The notes under the pieces are model-generated. The model made no database searches, had not been told where the DNA came from, and saw only the letters and a list, made by a program, of their open reading frames with translations. A program made the translations under genes and the position numbers. From Levilactobacillus wangkuiensis (GTDB lineage: Bacteria > Bacillota > Bacilli > Lactobacillales > Lactobacillaceae), in contig NZ_BOLM01000004.1 of assembly GCF_016861605.1 (NCBI RefSeq), positions 124,001 through 188,000 of the forward strand: a stretch of DNA of 64,000 bases, in the 5' to 3' direction. This document shows positions 6,246 to 60,140 of the stretch, in pieces (within the stretch, counting starts at the first letter, position 1; each line of letters opens with the position of its first letter).

Positions 6246-6322
6246 ACTCAGTAATCCCCTTTGTTTTTTAAACTATTATCCTCATAAGATAAACGCCACG
6301 ATTGAAAATGCGACCAAAAGAA

Positions 6323-6764: not shown

Positions 6765-7313
6765 TTAACCGTCAATAATTTGCTCACGCAAGAGGCCCGC
6801 AGCTAGCAAAAACATGTGCGTCACGACCGGACCGACAAAGCTAAATCCGCGGCGTTTTAAATCCTTAGCGACTGCGCTGCCGATACCCGATTGATTGGTC
6901 AATAAATCCCGAGTCACCGCTGGCAATAACAATGGCGTACCGTTCACAAACTCCCAGAGGTAGGCACTGAAACTGCCAAACTCCCGTTGCACTTGTATGA
7001 TGGCCCGCGCATTGTGAATGGTCGCCCGAATTTTTCGACCGTTGCTGATCATTGCCGAGTCATTGGCAATCCGTTCGCCGTCGAGTTCATCCTCAAAGCC
7101 GGCCACTCGCTGTGGGTCCATCCCCGCAAACAGCCGCCGATAAACGGGCAACTTGCTGGCGGCCGCCTGCCAACTCAGGCCAACCTGAAAGACGCCAACC
7201 GTCAGGAGCTCATACAACACGTGGTCATCATGGGTAGGCGTGCCAAAATACGCTTGATACTCCTGGGTCCCGTCGCTATCCCAAACGTGTCCATCATCCG
7301 GTCCAATCGCCAT
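6765..7313 (-). CDS. divergent DNA-3-methyladenine glycosylase I-like protein
   Basis: A 182-residue member of the Tag fold, shown by VFQVGLSWQAAASKLPVYR (near residues 41-60) and KDLKRRGFSFVGPVVTHMFL (near residues 149-168), which align with the genuine Tag at 18665. It lacks the features that define an active zinc-snap Tag: there is no CDW near the N-terminus, it ends before the HxxxC tail, and the glutamate in the LCLETYQAGLSW segment is replaced by glycine (LTVGVFQVGLSW). It may therefore bind damaged DNA without normal 3-methyladenine excision, or do another task. It lies alone between the T-box promoter and two minus-strand terminators. Confidence 0.8.
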   Translation of the reverse strand: MAIGPDDGHVWDSDGTQEYQAYFGTPTHDDHVLYELLTVGVFQVGLSWQAAASKLPVYRRLFAGMDPQRVAGFEDELDGERIANDSAMISNGRKIRATIHNARAIIQVQREFGSFSAYLWEFVNGTPLLLPAVTRDLLTNQSGIGSAVAKDLKRRGFSFVGPVVTHMFLLAAGLLREQIIDG

Positions 7314-8020: not shown

Positions 8021-9661
8021 TTATTTGATATAAGCGTATTTGTAGCTCCACTGGGTGCCCGCCGTATTGTGAATAATCCCCTTAACATCGGACCGTGTCA
8101 GATAAGCGTAGTTCGCCTGGTACAAAGGCGTGAAGCTCTGCGTCTTGTTCACCAGCTTGGCTGCCTGAACCATGTCTTGCCAACGTGCCTCATCGTTACC
8201 GGCATCTTGGTTCTGGGCCTTGTCGATCAGTGCATCGTATTGTTTGTTGGACCACTTGCCGTAGTTCAGTGAGTTCGAGCTGACCGGAATCTGCAGGAAG
8301 GAAATCGGATCGTTGAAGTCGGCCCCCCAGTGCGACAGGTAGAGGTCAAAATCGCCATTGGTCGAACGAGATTGCGCCACGGAAGCCGGCACGTTTTGAA
8401 TTTTCAGGTCAAAGCCCTTCAGATTCTTTTCCAGCGCACCCTTTAAGTATTGGGTCACGGTGCTGGCCGCCACGTCATCGTTACCGGCCATGATACTCAG
8501 GTTAACTTTCTTGATGCCAAGTTGTTTCAGTCCAGCCGCCCACTTCTTCTTGGCCAAAGTTGGGTTGTACGTCGTCGTGTTCTTGACCTTCTGCTGGCTG
8601 GCAAAGTCCTTGCCGCTCTTAGGATCACGCGCTAAGCCACTGGCAACAAAGCCGGTTGGCGTCACGGAACCATCCCCCAGCACCTTCTTGGTCAGCTGAC
8701 TGCGGTTGATAGATAAAGCAATGGCCTGACGAATATTTTGATTGCTCATAATCCGCCGCTTAGCCTTGTCAGCATCTTGGAAGTTGTATTTCAAATGAAT
8801 CACGATGGAATAAGGATATTGCTGGAATTCTTTGTCATTCTTGTAGTTCTTAACTTGCTCATTGGATAACTGTGCGAAATCGAGTTTCTTGTTCTGGTAC
8901 AAACTCAGACCCGTTTGGGGATTCGTCACAACTTGATAATTAATCTTTTGGAGCTTAACGACCTTTTTATCCCAGTACTGATTATTCTTCACAAAGGACC
9001 AGGTGTTGCCCGTCCCGTTCCAGCCCTGAATCTTGAAGGGGCCGCTGTAGACCATGTACTCGGACTTGGTGGCATACTTCTTGCCGTATTTGTCGATAAC
9101 CTTTTTATTTTGTGGGGCGAATAACGGGTAAGCCATTAAAATTTTAAAGTAAGCAATAGGCTTATCCAGCTTGATGACCACCGTCTGTTGGTTCTTGGCG
9201 TGAATCCCGATGGTGCTGGGCTTAGCCTTACCGGCGATAATCTTGTCCCCATTTTTGATTCCAGAAAACATCGTCATGTACGAAGACTTGGTGGATGGCG
9301 TTAACGTCCGCCGCCAAGAATAAACGAAGTCTTGGGCCGTAATCTTGTCGCCGTTGCTCCACTTTGCGTTGTCGCGAATGTGGAACGTCCACGTTTTCTT
9401 ATCCTTTGACATTTTTGCTGAATCTGCCAACCCTGGTGCAACCTGACCGTCTTTGCCTAACCGATAAAAACTTTCAAAAACGTTCCCCGTCTGGCCATAA
9501 CCGGTGGCCTTGGCGAGGTCGATGGTGTCGAGCGCGGCCGTCGCTGGTAACCGCAAAACTTGTTGTGGCTTGGACGTTGCCGCAGTTTGGCCACAGGCAG
9601 CTAACCCCATACCAATTGCCAATACTGCTGCGACTAACCCAATCCCAGTCCATTTTTTCAT
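8021..9661 (-). CDS. oligopeptide ABC transporter substrate-binding lipoprotein
   Basis: A 546-residue extracellular lipoprotein of the OppA/DppA family (SBP family 5). The signal peptide ends in LAACG (cysteine near residue 23), and the mature protein has the usual family pattern: PATAALDTIDLAKATG early, KTWTFHIRDNAKWSNGD near residue 90 and RQAIALSINR near residue 315. It should capture peptides for an Opp-type importer, but no permease or ATPase gene is adjacent, so it must use one encoded elsewhere. Upstream lies a leader with a cysteine-rich micro-ORF and a terminator, suggesting that expression follows cysteine supply and that cysteine-containing peptides may be cargo (inference). Confidence 0.92.
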   Translation of the reverse strand: MKKWTGIGLVAAVLAIGMGLAACGQTAATSKPQQVLRLPATAALDTIDLAKATGYGQTGNVFESFYRLGKDGQVAPGLADSAKMSKDKKTWTFHIRDNAKWSNGDKITAQDFVYSWRRTLTPSTKSSYMTMFSGIKNGDKIIAGKAKPSTIGIHAKNQQTVVIKLDKPIAYFKILMAYPLFAPQNKKVIDKYGKKYATKSEYMVYSGPFKIQGWNGTGNTWSFVKNNQYWDKKVVKLQKINYQVVTNPQTGLSLYQNKKLDFAQLSNEQVKNYKNDKEFQQYPYSIVIHLKYNFQDADKAKRRIMSNQNIRQAIALSINRSQLTKKVLGDGSVTPTGFVASGLARDPKSGKDFASQQKVKNTTTYNPTLAKKKWAAGLKQLGIKKVNLSIMAGNDDVAASTVTQYLKGALEKNLKGFDLKIQNVPASVAQSRSTNGDFDLYLSHWGADFNDPISFLQIPVSSNSLNYGKWSNKQYDALIDKAQNQDAGNDEARWQDMVQAAKLVNKTQSFTPLYQANYAYLTRSDVKGIIHNTAGTQWSYKYAYIK

Positions 9662-29836: not shown

Positions 29837-29874
29837 ACAAAACGACCAGGACAATGGCGTCCTGGTCGTTTTGT
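29837..29874 (-). terminator. rho-independent terminator of the LPxTG protein gene
   Basis: Perfect 16-bp stem ACAAAACGACCAGGAC / GTCCTGGTCGTTTTGT with a six-base loop. Confidence 0.85.
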
Positions 29875-51266: not shown

Positions 51267-51378
51267 AAAAAAATGGGGCTCAAAATCAAGCCACTTTTCC
51301 CGTGCAGAAGCCAGTGCTCCCGTAGAAAAAATAGTTTGATCTTAAGCCCCATTGCTTTTGCACAACGTCAGTGTTGTG
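51267..51378 (-). promoter_or_regulatory. EutV (ANTAR) antiterminator element before eutA
   Basis: On the - strand hairpin P1, CACAAC-ACTGAC-GTTGTG (51361-51378), and hairpin P2, AAGC-AATGGG-GCTT (51344-51357), both have six-base loops with A at position 1 and G at position 4, the ANTAR recognition pattern. P2 shares GGGGCTT with the terminator stem (51336-51353 pairing with 51272-51289, followed by T7), so P2 and the terminator exclude each other. P1 overlaps the end of eutW. Confidence 0.9.
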
Positions 51379-52807
51379 TTTTTTGATCAAATGAGAAACA
51401 AACATCGGTACCTTGTGCCGACGATTCAATTTTCAAGCGACCCAACAGCTTATCCTTCACATAGCTCCGGATAATCGTTAAGCCCAAACTACCAGCCCGC
51501 GTCTTGTTGAGGTCGAAACCCACGCCATCGTCGGTAACTCGTAGGGTAATAATTTCTTGGTTTGTGGTTCCCGTGATAGCCACATGGCCGCATTTAACGC
51601 AACCATTAGGGTACGCATGGGAAATCACGTTTTGTAATAGCTCATTAATGATAATGGAAATCGTCACAACCTGTTCACTATCCACCGTGATGCGCGGATC
51701 AATTTGCAACTGCACATCTAACTCTTGATTGTCATCGTTGAGTTGTTTGAAGTGGGAAATCAACAGATGTAAAGCGGATTGGAGACTGGTATGATCGCCC
51801 AACTGTTTGGACATCAGTTCGTACGTTGACGAAATCGCCATAATGCGGCTGATGCTCTCGTTAAGTGCCTTCTTAGCCTCATCACCTTCCAGCCGCCGCT
51901 GTTGAATGCGGAGCAGGGAGATAACTGACTGGAGATTATTCTTAACGCGGTGATTGATTTCGCGAATGGCAACGGACTTGGAGATGATCTCAGCCTCTTT
52001 GGCTTTGACATCCGTCTTATCTTGAATCAATACCACCAATTGTTGGTTACTCTCATTCCAGAACTTCCGCTCCGAAAAGAAGTAGTTCAAGTAATTAAAA
52101 TCAAATGTTATGGGCTGCTCTTCTTCACTGAGTCCTTGTAACTGTGTCAGAACATCCTTGAACCGGGACCCGTCTAACGATAAGTTTTCGTAGTCCAACC
52201 CAATGATGTTCCCAATGTAACCGACCTTCTTGTAGAGAGCCAACGCGGTATGGTTAGCCAAAACTAACCGTCCGGTATGGTCAAATCCCAAAATGGCATC
52301 CGCCAGCTGATCCGTAATCGTCGTGTCTAGCCGACCAAACATCTTAATGGTTGCTGAGACGTCAGAGTACCGGCTCTGGGTATCCTCACTTTGAAAGTCA
52401 TCCAAAACGTCATGAGAGGCATCAGATTCAACGATAGTGACCCCAATTGTCTTCTTCTCATGCATGATGGGAAAAATCCGTTGGCGAATCAATCGTTGTT
52501 CCTGCGTTTCCGCTAGGAGATCCATCGAAGCCAACTTGGTTTCTAAGGTATGAAATACCCCGGGTTCGTTGGTTCGTAAGGCTTCTTTACCTGTGACTTT
52601 GCGATGATACAATGATGGGACATCTACTGGCAACTTGTGATAAATCACAACCGCCTGATTGTTATATTGATTGCGAACATCGATAAATACATCTGAGTTT
52701 CGATAGGCTGGCGTCTGCTCAATCTCTTTGGTTTCTGCCAAGAGCGTCGCAACGTCTGACTGATCTAAATTCGTATATTGTTGACACAACTCTTCGAATT
52801 CACTCAT
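51368..52807 (-). CDS. eutW: EutW, ethanolamine-sensing histidine kinase
   Basis: A 479-residue kinase without membrane helices. The N-terminal 170 residues are the EutW-type sensor, a PAS domain follows (GFDHTGRLVLANHTALALYK, near 185-204), then a HisKA_2-type domain with the phospho-histidine in AIREINHRVKNNLQSVISLL (near 295), and an ATPase domain with NELLQNVISHAYP and DDGVGFDLNKTRAGSLGLTI. It phosphorylates EutV when ethanolamine is present. Its start overlaps the eutV stop (TAATG). Confidence 0.94.
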   Translation of the reverse strand: MSEFEELCQQYTNLDQSDVATLLAETKEIEQTPAYRNSDVFIDVRNQYNNQAVVIYHKLPVDVPSLYHRKVTGKEALRTNEPGVFHTLETKLASMDLLAETQEQRLIRQRIFPIMHEKKTIGVTIVESDASHDVLDDFQSEDTQSRYSDVSATIKMFGRLDTTITDQLADAILGFDHTGRLVLANHTALALYKKVGYIGNIIGLDYENLSLDGSRFKDVLTQLQGLSEEEQPITFDFNYLNYFFSERKFWNESNQQLVVLIQDKTDVKAKEAEIISKSVAIREINHRVKNNLQSVISLLRIQQRRLEGDEAKKALNESISRIMAISSTYELMSKQLGDHTSLQSALHLLISHFKQLNDDNQELDVQLQIDPRITVDSEQVVTISIIINELLQNVISHAYPNGCVKCGHVAITGTTNQEIITLRVTDDGVGFDLNKTRAGSLGLTIIRSYVKDKLLGRLKIESSAQGTDVCFSFDQKTQH

Positions 52808-53376
52808 TAGGCATCCATCACAATCAATTCCGCAATCGCGTTCATGGACTGCCGCTTACTCATGCTCAAGTTCCGAAGCATCTTGTAGGCAGCATCTTCT
52901 GATAAATTGTTCTCTTCCATCAGAATCCCTTTGGCCCGCTCAATAACCTTCCGTTCAGCTAGCTTTGTATCCAGGTCTTCAACCTTTTTAGTAAGTTGTT
53001 GATCCCGTTTACCACTAGCTAATCCGACCTGAATAGTGGTTAATAAAGATCGTTCTGAAAGGGGTTTCACTAGATAGCCGACTGCACCAATGCGGCTGGC
53101 GGTATCCGTGTCTTCCTCATCACTATAGGCGGATAGGTAGACGATTGAGCGCGTTAAATGATCTGCCAAAATTTTCTTACCGGCCTTTAAGCCATCTAAG
53201 ATGGGCATCCGAATATCCATAATTACGAGATCAGGCTTCTGTTCTTGACAAACATCAATGGCTTCAAAGCCATCACTACCCTCACCCACAACCTGGTACC
53301 CGGCCTGTTCAACAATGTCCCGGATATCCATGCGCGTGATCGGTTCATCATCGACAATTACAATACGTTCCTTCAT
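52807..53376 (-). CDS. eutV: EutV, ANTAR-domain response regulator
   Basis: A 189-residue RNA-binding response regulator. Receiver domain residues 3-118 with acidic pocket VDDEP and phospho-acceptor Asp in LVIMDIRMP (near residue 54), T/S in YLSAYSDEED and lysine in YLVKPLS. A coiled linker leads to the ANTAR domain (about 135-187; IERAKGILMEENNLSEDAAY and LRNLSMSKRQSMNAIAELI). When phosphorylated it binds paired hairpins and prevents termination, here before eutA and eutG. Confidence 0.95.
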   Translation of the reverse strand: MKERIVIVDDEPITRMDIRDIVEQAGYQVVGEGSDGFEAIDVCQEQKPDLVIMDIRMPILDGLKAGKKILADHLTRSIVYLSAYSDEEDTDTASRIGAVGYLVKPLSERSLLTTIQVGLASGKRDQQLTKKVEDLDTKLAERKVIERAKGILMEENNLSEDAAYKMLRNLSMSKRQSMNAIAELIVMDA

Positions 53377-53530: not shown

Positions 53531-54670
53531 TTAGGAAAAGCTGTCTTCCAAGATGCTCTTAACATCTGCGGCAACGGGAACCCGTGGATTCGCTGAAGTC
53601 GTCCGATCCTTTAAAGCCGCTTCCGAGATTTCATCCTTCGTTGATTCAAATAATTCTGAATCCAGACCATATTCTTGGAAGGTTGCTGGCATCTTTAACT
53701 TCCGTCTGAGTTGCACGATGGTGTTAATCAAGCTACGAACCGCAATCTTTGGATTAGCAACTTGAATGCCAATCAACCGTGCCAGGTTAGCGTATTTAAC
53801 TGCAGCCCGGTTTGGTTTTTCCATGATGCCGGCATCCATCTCTGCGTTGTACGAAATGATGTGTGGCATCAGGATGGTGTTTAAGCGACCATGGGGAATG
53901 TGATACTGAGCACCCGCAGCATGCGCAATGCCGTGGTTCAGTCCCAAATTGACCATGTTGAAGGCCATCCCAGCAATACATGAAGCATCATGCATCTTTT
54001 GCCGTGCTTCCATGTCCGAGCCATCCTTGCTAACACGTTCCAGGTAAGTAAAGACCATCTGGAAGCCCTTTTCAGCTAATGCATCTGAGAAGTCGTTGGC
54101 ATTAATGGAGACGTAAGCCTCTAAACAGTGCGTCAACACGTCCATCCCGGTATCTACCGTGATATTCTGTGGTGCTGAGGCAACCAAGTCGGCATCGAGT
54201 AACGCCACCTTAGGTAAGATGTCATCCGTCACCAGCGGGTACTTGATACCCTTGTCACTGTTCGTGATGACCGCAAAGTTGGTGACCTCAGAACCGGTCC
54301 CACTCGTTGTTGGTACGGCAATCAAGTCAAGGTCCGTTTCACCCTTCGTCATTTGCTTCAGGATGAACTTCATTGCTTTGGTGGCGTCAATTGCTGAACC
54401 CCCACCAACGGCAACCAATAAGGTAGCCTTGAACTTCTGTAATGCTTCAATTCCAGTCACAATCTTCGTCACTGGCGGATCGGGTTGAATGTCGGAAAAG
54501 ACTTCCAGTTCGTTTTTACTTTCCAAATGAACCGTGATCTTATCCAAGCTTCCCGACTTCACCATAAATGGATCAGTTACCACAAAGATCCGCTCTCCAC
54601 TGATATCTTCCAGACCCTTCAACGAGCCATCACCAGTCCAGATCTGAGTTTTAAACTGTATTTTCTCCAA
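53531..54670 (-). CDS. eutG: EutG-type iron-containing alcohol dehydrogenase
   Basis: A 379-residue family III alcohol dehydrogenase that reduces acetaldehyde to ethanol and regenerates NAD+. NAD-binding VGGGSAIDATKAMKF lies near residue 90, and metal ligands in DTGMDVLTHCLEAYVS (near 185-200) and GLNHGIAHAAGAQYHIPHGR (near 245-264). I prefer the TTG at 54670 as start because AAGGAGG stands eight bases upstream; the ATG at 54694 has no site and would include that ribosome site in the coding part. Behind its own promoter and a EutV-controlled terminator. Confidence 0.93.
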   Translation of the reverse strand: MEKIQFKTQIWTGDGSLKGLEDISGERIFVVTDPFMVKSGSLDKITVHLESKNELEVFSDIQPDPPVTKIVTGIEALQKFKATLLVAVGGGSAIDATKAMKFILKQMTKGETDLDLIAVPTTSGTGSEVTNFAVITNSDKGIKYPLVTDDILPKVALLDADLVASAPQNITVDTGMDVLTHCLEAYVSINANDFSDALAEKGFQMVFTYLERVSKDGSDMEARQKMHDASCIAGMAFNMVNLGLNHGIAHAAGAQYHIPHGRLNTILMPHIISYNAEMDAGIMEKPNRAAVKYANLARLIGIQVANPKIAVRSLINTIVQLRRKLKMPATFQEYGLDSELFESTKDEISEAALKDRTTSANPRVPVAADVKSILEDSFS

Positions 54671-54712
54671 ACTCCCAACCTCCTTTACAACCATGCTCCG
54701 TAAATAGGCCTG

Positions 54713-54785
54713 AAAAAAAGATGCTTAAGAACACACAAATAAAGTGTGTTCCTAAGCATCATTGCTTTTATGTACGCCATTGTAC
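54713..54785 (-). promoter_or_regulatory. EutV (ANTAR) antiterminator element before eutG
   Basis: P1 is GTAC-AATGGC-GTAC (54772-54785) and P2 is AAGC-AATGAT-GCTT (54754-54767), each with a six-base loop of the form AxxGxx. The terminator is the 41-base hairpin 54720-54760 (GATGCTTA...TAAGCATC) with T7. P2 uses GATGCTT, the foot of the terminator, so the two structures compete, as in known EutV targets. Confidence 0.92.
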
Positions 54786-54813: not shown

Positions 54814-54842
54814 AATATAGCGCTTACATAAGTGTTTGTCAA
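54814..54842 (-). promoter_or_regulatory. eutG promoter with overlapping cre-like site
   Basis: TTGACA (54837-54842), 17-base spacer, TATATT (54814-54819). The spacer and -10 contain TGTAAGCGCTATAT (54815-54828), close to the CcpA cre consensus, so glucose repression of eutG is likely. Confidence 0.8.
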
Positions 54843-54851
54843 CAAAATCAC

Positions 54852-54942
54852 AAAAAAAGACCGCAATAAAATTGCAGTCCCCCGCAAACGCCATTGTTTA
54901 CGTCCGAAATAGCACGCCATTGTGCATTTAATTGAACTTAAA
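54852..54942 (-). ncRNA. EutV-sequestering hairpins and terminator (EutX/Rli55-like RNA, 3' part)
   Basis: On the - strand two ANTAR-type hairpins, GCAC-AATGGC-GTGC (54912-54925) and GTAAAC-AATGGC-GTTTGC (54884-54901), carry identical six-base loops with A1 and G4. They are followed by a terminator, GACTGCAAT/ATTGCGGTC with T7 (54852-54879), and no gene lies between this terminator and the eutG promoter. Together with the riboswitch just upstream, this is the layout of the EutV-sequestering RNAs EutX (Enterococcus) and Rli55 (Listeria). Confidence 0.85.
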
Positions 54943-55082
54943 GACATTCCACCTATTCCTCGAGGTGAAATGTCACACAAGTAGCCTAATAGAAAGATCT
55001 GACTTATAGCAGAGAGCACCCTGCTAATCACAGTGGCGGGACCGTATCGGGTTTACACCGATTTCCATCTAATTAAGTACTT
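54943..55082 (-). promoter_or_regulatory. cobalamin riboswitch controlling the EutV-sequestering RNA
   Basis: Core at 54979-55082 on the - strand: GGAAATCGGTGTAAACCCG, then GGTCCCGCCACTGTGA, then AAGTCAGAT, all cobalamin riboswitch hallmarks. P1 closes AAGTA (55082) with TACTT (54979). Just after it a 12-bp hairpin, GACATTTCACCT / AGGTGGAATGTC (54943-54974), with TTTAAGTT could serve as the expression platform: cobalamin-bound RNA would end here, before the EutV-binding hairpins. Confidence 0.9.
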
Positions 55083-55138
55083 CTTGTCAATTAGTAACTT
55101 AAGGTTAGCATACTTCACACTAACTTGCTACTAATTAG

Positions 55139-55699
55139 CTAATGAAAAACTTCCTTGCCATGTTCATAAAAGACTTCTGGCGTCCCCGTCCGGTAATTGA
55201 TGACCCGGGCTAACGCGTAAAAGTAATCGGACAATCGGTTCACAAAGACCAGTAATTCTGGTGGCAACGTCGTGGACCAGGCCAACGTAACAATTTGTCG
55301 TTCAGCACGGCGGGTCACCGTCCGACAAATCTGGAACAGTGCTGATTCTTTACTCCCACCAGGTAGAATGAACCGAGAAATTTCAGGTGGCTCATCCTGA
55401 TAGACGTCAATGCGTTTTTCAATCCAGTCCACGTACTTCGGGTCGAAGCGCATGTTATCCCAGTTCAACTTCGGGTTCGCAAAATCCGTTCCCAGGTCAA
55501 ACAGGCAATGCTGTAAGCGCGTCAATTCAGCCTTAAGCTCAGTTTCCTTGTCGTCAAGTTCTGCAATTGCCAGACCTAAATAAGTATTGAGCTCATCGAT
55601 GGTTCCGTAAGCCCAGACACGATCTGAATCTTTGCTGACCTTGGCGCCATCGACTAGCCGGGTCATCCCTTTGTCACCAACACCAGTGTATAGCTGCAT
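55139..55699 (-). CDS. pduO: PduO-type ATP:cob(I)alamin adenosyltransferase
   Basis: A 186-residue enzyme that makes adenosylcobalamin, the cofactor of EutBC. YTGVGDKGMTRLVDGAKVSK (residues 3-22) is the ATP-binding start, YGTIDELNTYLG follows, and RRAERQIV and VNRLSDYFYALARV near the C-terminus complete the PduO/MMAB active site. The ATG at 55699 has AAGGAGG seven bases upstream. It replaces a standard EutT and lies directly upstream of the cobalamin riboswitch RNA and eutG. Its own leader has a terminator with a EutV-like hairpin and a cre-like promoter. Confidence 0.94.
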   Translation of the reverse strand: MQLYTGVGDKGMTRLVDGAKVSKDSDRVWAYGTIDELNTYLGLAIAELDDKETELKAELTRLQHCLFDLGTDFANPKLNWDNMRFDPKYVDWIEKRIDVYQDEPPEISRFILPGGSKESALFQICRTVTRRAERQIVTLAWSTTLPPELLVFVNRLSDYFYALARVINYRTGTPEVFYEHGKEVFH

Positions 55700-55715: not shown

Positions 55716-55776
55716 CAAAAAGAAGGCACCAAATAACCCACTCATCGATGAGTGACTTATTTGGCGCCTTTGCCAA
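55716..55776 (-). promoter_or_regulatory. leader terminator of pduO with one ANTAR-like hairpin
   Basis: The terminator AAGGCGCCAAATAA... / ...TTATTTGGTGCCTT (55723-55770) is followed by TCTTTTTG. Its foot overlaps a hairpin TTGGC-AAAGGC-GCCAA (55761-55776) whose six-base loop has A1 and G4, like a EutV P2. I cannot find a matching P1 between it and the promoter, so EutV control is likely but less certain than for eutG and eutA. Confidence 0.65.
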
Positions 55777-58493: not shown

Positions 58494-60140
58494 TTAATCG
58501 GTTATCTGTGTGACGTCTTGACTAAACAATGCAGTTGGCACCTGTTGCCGCAGCAACCGGTTGACGGCCGTCGTGGATAAGAAGTTCTCCGTGAAGAACT
58601 GGCGGGTCGGTTGTGGCTCTGTCAAACACCCGTTAAACATGAACGTGCAGGTGTCAGCAAATTCCGCACAGAAGTCCATATCGTGGCTGGCCATGATCAG
58701 GGTCAACCCGGCTTGGTGCTTCTCTTGCAGGATGCGGCCCACCAGCAATTTGGTTCCCGGATCCAAGCCCTTAGTGGGTTCGTCCAACAACAGGACTTGG
58801 GGCCGTGTGATCAGCGCCAAGGCTAAGCCCAGAAGCTGCTGTTGACCCCCACTGAGATCAAATGAATTCTGCTCGGCCACCGCCTGCAACTGGAACGTTT
58901 CTAACGCCTTTTGCACCCGTTCGGTCACGTCGCCAGAAGCCAGCTTGGCTTGGGCCGTTAACTCCTCAGTGACCGTGTCGCCGTTGAACTGCTCCGTGGG
59001 GTTCTGTGACAAATAACTCAATTGCCGCAGTCGATCACGATTCTTCATCTTCCAAATAATCTGATGATTCAAGCGAACCTTGCCGTGTTGTGGCTTGCGC
59101 AGGCCCGCCAGCACCGTTAACAGTGTCGACTTGCCGGACCCATTTTTCCCAATGATGGCCAGCCAACTCGCCGGTGTCACGGTCAGGTCCAGCTGATGCA
59201 AAATATCACCAGTCGTTGGGTACCGTAGTGAGACATGTTGCGCCTCGAAGTGCCAGTTCGCTGGCCGCGCAATGGACTCGGGTTCCGCTAACGGTGCCGC
59301 TTTAAACCGCCAACCCCGCTGGGTAATCAACCGCCGACCAGCCGTCACGGTCAACGGCAACGGCGCCGCATCCAAGTGGTGCGCCAGGAAAAACTGCGGC
59401 ACGGCCGGGACAAATGGCTGGAGTTTAGGTGCCGCCTGCATACGCTGCAGACCGGTCGAGACATCTCCGTCGTACGTGAGGTGCCCATCTTCCAGGAGGA
59501 CCAGTCGATTGGCTAGAGCCAGGACCCGGTTCAACCGGTGCTCCGTCAAGATGATGGTAATCGCCAGTTCATCATGCACCTGCTGCAAAATGTTCAAAAA
59601 GTTTTGCGCCGTCGTCGGATCTAACTGGGCAGTGGGTTCGTCCAGCAGAATCACCTGGGGCTTCAACGCTAAGACTGAGGCCAGATTCACTAACTGGAGT
59701 TGTCCCCCAGAAAGGTCCTGAATCGGCATGTGGAGAAACTGATTTAATCCTAAGAAATTAGAGACCTCGGCGATGCGACTGTTCATTTCAGCCGTTGAAT
59801 AGCCGAGATTTTCTAAAGGAAACGCTAATTCCTCGATCACCGTGGCCATGATGGGTTGGACTTGCGGGTCCTGAGCGACGTAGCCCAACTGTTGGGCACT
59901 GACGTTACTGGTGAGGTCGGCCACCGGGGTTCCCTGATACAGCACATCGCCACGCTGTTCACCAGCCGGCTTAAGCTCCGTCTTCAACTGTTTCAGTAAG
60001 GTGGTCTTGCCACTTCCGGTCGCCCCCACGATGGTGACGAACTCGCCGGCCGCAATCTTCAGGGAGATGTCTACCAGCGTTGGCTGCGTCTGCCCGGCAT
60101 ATGTAAATGATAAATTTGAACAGTTAATCAATTCTCGCAT
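58494..60140 (-). CDS. ECF transporter ATPase with two fused nucleotide-binding domains
   Basis: A 548-residue protein made of two ABC ATPase halves, energising the ECF uptake complex. First half: Walker A GATGSGKTTLL (near residue 38), LSGGQLQLVNLASVL, Walker B VILLDEPTAQLDP. Second half (from about 290): Walker A GKNGSGKSTLL, LSGGQQQLLGLALAL, Walker B VLLLDEPTKGLDPG. In most lactobacilli the two ATPases are separate; fused ones occur in dedicated (group I) ECF systems. Its start overlaps the end of the T-component gene by 13 bases. Confidence 0.92.
   Translation of the reverse strand: MRELINCSNLSFTYAGQTQPTLVDISLKIAAGEFVTIVGATGSGKTTLLKQLKTELKPAGEQRGDVLYQGTPVADLTSNVSAQQLGYVAQDPQVQPIMATVIEELAFPLENLGYSTAEMNSRIAEVSNFLGLNQFLHMPIQDLSGGQLQLVNLASVLALKPQVILLDEPTAQLDPTTAQNFLNILQQVHDELAITIILTEHRLNRVLALANRLVLLEDGHLTYDGDVSTGLQRMQAAPKLQPFVPAVPQFFLAHHLDAAPLPLTVTAGRRLITQRGWRFKAAPLAEPESIARPANWHFEAQHVSLRYPTTGDILHQLDLTVTPASWLAIIGKNGSGKSTLLTVLAGLRKPQHGKVRLNHQIIWKMKNRDRLRQLSYLSQNPTEQFNGDTVTEELTAQAKLASGDVTERVQKALETFQLQAVAEQNSFDLSGGQQQLLGLALALITRPQVLLLDEPTKGLDPGTKLLVGRILQEKHQAGLTLIMASHDMDFCAEFADTCTFMFNGCLTEPQPTRQFFTENFLSTTAVNRLLRQQVPTALFSQDVTQITD

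Follow-up and report, generated by a model that had tools for sequence, protein, structure and literature searches.

A regulatory circuit in which an RNA senses B12 and acts as a sponge for EutV is known from two pathogens. In the published descriptions, EutX and Rli55 end early in the presence of B12 and sequester EutV in its absence (PMC5821096, PMC8079631, PMC7602753). EutX of Enterococcus faecalis is described as an AdoCbl riboswitch between a PduO-type gene and eutG, with EutV hexaloops downstream that are not terminator-associated, and eutG is reported to have a separate transcript with its own promoter (PMC5821096). For Rli55 of Listeria, the account is of a B12 riboswitch with premature termination in the presence of B12 (about 200 versus 450 nt) and an ANTAR site that sequesters EutV (PMC8079631). 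The ANTAR dual-hexaloop antiterminators of E. faecalis (eutP, eutG, eutS, and eutA) carry two hexaloops of the A1/G4 motif given in PMC3369931. Among the open-licence papers listed by literature searches, none describes a EutV sponge in lactobacilli in its title or abstract opening, and the accessible part of a comparative riboswitch paper (PMC3766115) makes no mention of eut.

Here we describe a candidate RNA of this type in a 64,000-nt stretch of Levilactobacillus wangkuiensis (the window, W), to the whole of which positions refer; among the relatives compared, L003 is L. brevis ATCC 14869. Putative EutV sites were sought with R1, a covariance model trained on 14 predicted antiterminator sites and on no decoy. 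U-tracts were graded by a T-score, using what we take to be its correct formula. The features that bear on the argument are as follows:

51344..51376, minus strand: predicted EutV site in the eutA leader, loops ACTGAC and AATGGG (R1 41.1 bits; in the R1 training set)
51368..52807, minus strand: eutW, sensor histidine kinase (PF12282, PF07568)
52807..53376, minus strand: eutV, response regulator with ANTAR domain (PF00072, PF03861; best PDB match EutV 6WSH, E 5e-75)
53531..54694, minus strand: eutG, iron-containing alcohol dehydrogenase (Pfam PF25137, PF00465)
54720..54760, minus strand: terminator of the eutG leader, 17 bp, overlapping the 3' arm of P2 of the eutG site
54754..54785, minus strand: predicted EutV site in the eutG leader, P1 loop AATGGC, P2 loop AATGAT (R1 48.9 bits; in the R1 training set)
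54814..54842, minus strand: predicted eutG promoter, TTGACA/17/TATATT, 11/12 matches
54829-54816, minus strand: cre-like ATGTAAGCGCTATA in the eutG promoter, read from the sequence
54848..54882, minus strand: strong private terminator of the decoy RNA, with T-run (longest version 54883-54855)
54883..54902, minus strand: decoy hairpin P2, stem 7 bp, loop AATGGC (first loop base 54895)
54912..54925, minus strand: decoy hairpin P1, stem 4 bp, loop AATGGC (first loop base 54921; R1 match 54886-54925)
54943..54974, minus strand: P13 hairpin of 12 bp followed by a short U tract (T-score 2.76); candidate terminator under B12 control
54940..55093, minus strand: AdoCbl riboswitch, RF01482 over the full model length including P13
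55102..55130, minus strand: candidate promoter of the decoy RNA, weak -35 TAGCAA, 17 nt, extended -10 TGC TAACCT (55110-55102)
55139..55699, minus strand: PduO-type cob(I)alamin adenosyltransferase gene (TIGR00636, 199.9 bits)
55717..55774, minus strand: pduO leader; the 3' arm of the hexaloop hairpin GGC-AAAGGC-GCC forms the terminator base, and the apex is another A1/G4 hexaloop (ATCGAT)

The window shares with EutX the placement of the riboswitch between a PduO-type gene and eutG, the EutV hexaloops downstream of it, and a predicted promoter for eutG itself. As a yardstick for EutX we used the E. faecalis-like locus L153, whose EutV is 99.5% identical to the crystallised E. faecalis protein. 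At L153, the hexaloops lie some 65 to 85 nt further downstream, behind a long CCAGCCC...GGGCTGG hairpin, and are borne on other stems (tctttc/gaagga and gtac/gtac), whereas the compact tail of the lactobacilli has no such long hairpin and, unlike the EutX site as published, is closed by a private hairpin terminator. The parts reported for Rli55 are likewise predicted in the window. However, at the Listeria-like loci (L157, L159, L178, and L184) P13 is followed by a distinct, strong terminator, and the hexaloops stand 43 to 44 nt apart. L159, which also carries rli56, differs further from the compact tails in its more distant hexaloops, its stems, and its long hairpin, and its upstream ORF, the only one listed for these loci, is not PduO-like by eye. 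The first-pass annotation had pduO standing in the place of eutT. A PduO-type gene does lie upstream, but the difference is one of naming only, the gene at that position in L153 being PduO-type as well (TIGR00636). What is new is the compact layout of the putative sponge in lactobacilli, the trick of EutX and Rli55 being already known from Enterococcus and Listeria; the sponge would carry a circuit of two pathogens into food and gut lactobacilli. In three family-f5 loci (L160, L161, and L162), the terminator after P13 has AATGGC or AATGGA near its apex, and there the riboswitch terminator itself may display a EutV hexaloop.

The riboswitch core proposed in the first-pass annotation was recovered by a covariance-model search, in which RF01482 matched 55093-54940 at 83.9 bits (gathering score 50, E = 4.3e-14 for the window), the single match at E 0.001 in the whole genome. 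It lies between the PduO-type adenosyltransferase gene and eutG, both on the minus strand. As a full-length match it resembles other members of the family, from which it differs in that no gene of the window is directly under its control. The 12-bp hairpin that had been taken as a possible terminator is present at 54974-54943 but proved to be P13, the last helix of the Rfam model, and so a part of the riboswitch as well as a candidate, though marginal, terminator. Beyond the window, 23 of the 37 stretches L149 to L185 were run through Rfam, and all 23 contain RF01482. A core pattern scan of the remaining 14 gave 11 matches, with L177, L179, and L181 lacking one. L082 to L148, which are short (about 2.7 to 3.6 kb), were covered by pattern scan only, and the distant ANTAR regulators L013 to L081 lay outside the analysis.

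Among 397 Lactobacillaceae genomes, ten encode EutV at a threshold of E 1e-40 (the gene of G295 has an internal stop codon), and the same ten have RF01482 above cutoff; six further genomes have weaker RF01482 matches and no EutV at that threshold. The compact layout was found by computation at 11 of the 12 Lactobacillaceae loci examined (W, L002 to L010, and L150), which represent six genera: Levilactobacillus, Furfurilactobacillus, Lentilactobacillus, Loigolactobacillus, Bombilactobacillus, and the genus of L150. The twelfth locus, L149 (family f1), has the enterococcal layout and was left out of the 11-locus counts. It stands on a 6.7-kb contig of a 76% complete genome (G261), and an enterococcal-type EutX layout in a Lactobacillaceae genome may reflect transfer or mis-binning. 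At L150, a stop codon interrupts eutV (8796-9110), and the riboswitch, decoy, and eutG site remain.

R1, which knows only predicted antiterminators, was applied at a threshold of E 0.5. It matched behind each of the ten riboswitches linked to EutV, at 15.4 to 26.7 bits (in the enterococcal-type L220, over a single hairpin), and gave no match at eight AdoCbl-like places that have no link to EutV. It spans the whole decoy in 10 of the 11 compact-layout loci, the match being weak in the window (17.6 bits, E 0.02) and partial in L002 (13.6 bits, E 0.26); a two-hairpin ANTAR model does, then, recognise the window decoy, as had been proposed, if weakly. Over the whole window genome, R1 was strong only at the eutG and eutA leaders, both training sequences, with the next match at 17.7 bits (E 0.26), in a search that is blind to the pduO type of leader and from whose list the window decoy is absent. 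The EutV regulon therefore looks local.

Both AATGGC hairpins and the strong terminator (54883-54855) were found as first annotated. Folded alone, the tail of the window forms exactly three hairpins, namely P1, P2, and the terminator (−25.6 kcal/mol, z = −2.5, equalled by 5 of 200 shuffles). In this fold the private terminator adjoins P2 with no base in common; the longest terminator version starts at 54883, the last base of P2. The tails of all 11 compact-layout loci fold with the same three hairpins, which are enclosed by a further helix in L003 and L010, and an extra pair narrows 6 of the 22 decoy hexaloops to four bases. In dinucleotide shuffles, a dual A1/G4 hexaloop with stems no shorter than 4 bp arose 4 times in 2,000 for the 110 nt used from the window, and the count per 2,000 ranged from 0 to 4 across the 11 loci. 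Of the real tails, ten contain such a pair; that of L. brevis (L003) does not, because its second loop, GATGGT, starts with G and lacks A1. On both strands of the window, only four A1/G4 hexaloop pairs occur at a spacing of 16 to 27, each followed by a T-run, and all lie in sense before pduO, eutG (decoy and leader), or eutA. The motif ACAATGGCGT occurs five times in the window against 0.23 expected, with three of the occurrences at the decoy locus; the two matches away from the eut locus are at 6929-6938 (+) and 29851-29860 (+).

Pairs 1 to 4 of both P1 and P2 are standard in 11 of 11 loci, with changes on both sides: CG/TA at pair 3 and GC/AT at pair 4 of P1, AT/GC at pair 3 and GC/AT/CG/TA at pair 6 of P2. 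The loop-adjacent pairs (C-G and A-T) are invariant across the 11 loci. In the antiterminators, mutating the closing pairs of P1 is reported to abolish induction (Ramesh 2012, PMC3369931). In the minimum-energy fold of the whole RNA, P1 is not free but paired with the B12 box. This pairing was considered as a conserved switch and rejected: it is worth −13.9 kcal/mol in the window and only −3.5 to −5.8 in L008 to L010, and hairpins of eutG, which are not on this RNA, pair with the box about equally well (−10.3 to −14.2), so that the pairing is better seen as a by-product of the AATGGC consensus.

Several observations bear on whether the decoy is made as a separate RNA. The pattern TGnTAnnnT stands 6 to 10 nt upstream of the aptamer in all 11 compact-layout loci, a placement reproduced by 8 to 71 of 1,000 shuffles, depending on the locus. 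It was also found in 13 of the 24 remaining loci, which makes 24 of 35 overall; the pattern was picked only after the sequences upstream of the aptamers had been inspected. The −35 elements vary among loci, that of the window being weak, and a general promoter scan of the window did not call the site. If it is used, the RNA probably has its 5' end near 55095, some 13 nt before the boundary given in the first-pass annotation. No eut gene lies between the riboswitch and the private terminator in the window, and the next gene start is that of eutG behind its own predicted promoter, as first described. TIGR00636 identifies the gene upstream of the decoy RNA as PduO-type in W, L003, L009, and L150, and inspection by eye does so in L002, L005, L008, and L010; in L004 and L006 that gene is not pduO-like (the contig of L007 ends before it). 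At L009, a gap of about 1.66 kb that includes another ORF separates the decoy from eutG. The varying upstream gene and this gap favor a trans-acting RNA made on its own. The 45 nt that separate pduO from the aptamer in the window contain no called terminator, so some of the decoy RNA may come from polymerases that continue past pduO.

Given EutV and EutW encoded next door, the shared occurrence of riboswitch and EutV in ten genomes, the R1 matches, and the behaviour of L. brevis described below (PMC11086012), we hold it quite probable that the window RNA is, as was first proposed, an EutX/Rli55-type regulatory RNA, a sponge for EutV that senses B12. We infer that it binds EutV and AdoCbl and terminates according to B12. 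Transcription of a regulatory RNA of about 247 nt would start at a dedicated promoter immediately 5' of the aptamer, with a possible contribution from polymerases running on out of pduO. When AdoCbl is lacking, polymerase would pass P13, make the two hexaloop hairpins, and end at the private terminator; the decoy hairpins would then capture ethanolamine-activated EutV, which would no longer reach the antiterminator sites that precede eutG, eutA, and, probably, pduO. When AdoCbl is present, transcription would end at or just after P13 (about 160 nt), the decoy would not be made, and EutV would be free to open the eut operon.

The least secure step in this scheme is B12-dependent termination, since the U-tract of the window P13 is marginal and the L5-L13 contact poor. 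The P13 T-score of 2.76 in the window compares with 0.74 (L004) to 3.68 in relatives, 3.19 at L153, and 4.0 to 5.9 for the private terminators. L5-L13 complementarity of at least 4 bp is present in 5 of the 11 compact-layout loci (L003, L004, L006, L008, and L009) and in all eight other loci compared, whereas pairing does not extend beyond 3 bp in W, L002, L005, L007, L010, or L150. These two points and the hidden P1 make the main rival a sponge that is blind to B12, in which EutV is titrated but riboswitch control has been lost in the window genome, leaving an ethanolamine threshold only. The aptamer score, 83.9 against 99.1 in L. brevis, also speaks for it. Even so, we regard such a loss as unlikely: many columns of the aptamer core are invariant in 11 of 11 loci and the model is matched over its full length, whereas a functionless aptamer should decay.

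Two further readings would have the riboswitch transcript act on eutG directly. Lying upstream of eutG and sharing its orientation, the riboswitch might control the gene in cis through the terminator at 54883-54855; however, a promoter-like site and a EutV-type leader terminator of its own precede eutG, the decoy of L009 is far removed from the gene, and the two hexaloop hairpins would be left without explanation, which makes this reading very improbable. Two A1/G4 hexaloops followed by a terminator are also the parts of a EutV antiterminator as set out in PMC3369931, and EutV bound to the hairpins could in principle let the riboswitch transcript run into eutG, as at a second antitermination site in tandem. 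We give that account very little credence in view of how the hairpins sit relative to the terminators. At eutG, the second hairpin overlaps the terminator in nine of nine sites (eight by unbiased calling; the ninth, L005, was added by a scan seeking overlapping terminators only), as described for E. faecalis (PMC5821096). L009 and L010 are missing from these counts, as no eutG site lay in the 450 nt scanned; R1 locates that of L009 at 6284-6321. Like such antiterminators, the decoys have two hexaloops, nearly always with A1 and G4, which in the decoys are closed by C-G and A-T pairs; unlike in them, decoy P2 overlaps a called terminator in 0 of 11 loci. The two are separated by 2 to 5 nt in every locus and coexist in the folds of the 11 tails, so that overlap of P2 with the 5' arm of the terminator, the mark of an antiterminator, was found at none of the 11 decoys, and P2 and terminator are nowhere mutually exclusive. 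Because it does not compete with the terminator, the decoy should bind EutV without antiterminating. Loop spacing also differs, 22 to 26 in the decoys of the 11 loci against 18 to 20 at the eutG sites of nine of the same loci. As a general mark of decoys, spacing was rejected: the enterococcal-type eutG sites of L149 and L153 reach 25 and 22, so spacing alone is no rule. For a B12-sensing EutV sponge and the antiterminators around it, the comparison yields a testable rule, by which a EutV site that overlaps a terminator acts and one that does not is a decoy.

The pduO leader presents a third arrangement. The pattern GGC-AAnGGC-GCC, an A1/G4 hexaloop at the base of a terminator, was found in seven loci (W, L002, L003, L005, L008, L009, and L150). 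Together with a T-run it marks one place per genome in 5 of the 10 EutV genomes searched, and the reversed pattern marks none in the same ten. The terminator apex forms a second A1/G4 hexaloop in W, L002, L003, and L150; the apex reads GGTGAT in L005, and L008 and L009 have no second apex hexaloop in this leader. The leader may be a EutV antiterminator that works with one hexaloop, as foreseen in PMC8934654, or one of an inverted-hexaloop type. A second GGCAANGGCGCC match in the window, at 59356-59367 (+), lacks the following T-run pattern of the pduO leader. A broader view, which we put forward tentatively and think rather doubtful, is that three RNA layouts are recognised by EutV in lactobacilli: one in which the second hexaloop overlaps the terminator (eutG, eutA), one in which the first hexaloop, or the only one, does so at the terminator base (pduO leader), and one with a non-overlapping pair and a private terminator (the sponge). 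The compact sponge would then have been assembled separately from the enterococcal and listerial ones, the two-input circuit would have more than one origin, and the leader of pduO would be a natural single-hexaloop ANTAR antiterminator.

The RNA is also present in L. brevis ATCC 14869, a strain whose published RNA-seq bears on the two inputs. In that study, 116 genes changed with ethanolamine plus AdoCbl, 14 (not named in the text) with ethanolamine alone, and 0 with AdoCbl alone (PMC11086012). Under the combined treatment the eut genes rise, and the table includes eutT, eutG, eutV, eutW, eutA, eutB, and eutC; eutT is the gene behind the pduO-type leader, and eutH is reported not to respond by qPCR. 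Because the 14 ethanolamine-alone genes are unnamed in the text, these data agree with a two-input requirement rather than prove it. The pdu and apf genes also respond to ethanolamine plus AdoCbl (PMC11086012). In L. brevis DSM 20054 (G084), which is the same strain as ATCC 14869, R1 found the eutG and eutA sites only, at E up to 1, so the pdu and apf response is probably indirect. EutVW and the sponge RNA would account for the eut response of L. brevis, but not alone for that of apf or pdu.

Downstream of the RNA, eutG is followed by eutV, eutW, eutA, eutB, and eutC. The window EutV shares 95% identity with its Levilactobacillus angrenensis counterpart. Compared with the E. faecalis protein, whose RNA-contact residues are named in PMC8934654, it keeps D54, K143, R168, M172, and R175; it has serine where E. 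faecalis has N173 and R177, and arginine at 147 against lysine. No CbiD match was found in the window's genome, which makes de novo B12 synthesis by the anaerobic route unlikely; B12 probably comes from outside, and a B12 gate would be sensible. The pduO gene likely starts at the ATG at 55699, the mechanical ORF starting at 55741. Its promoter holds a second copy of ATGTAAGCGCTATA, at 55804-55791 (−), and both copies overlap the −10. We take this motif to be cre-like on the strength of a presumed consensus. A cre-like site was seen by eye in the eutG promoters of relatives and is absent from the decoy promoter of the window. The motifs, as read, suggest catabolite repression of the eut and pduO genes but not of the putative sponge.
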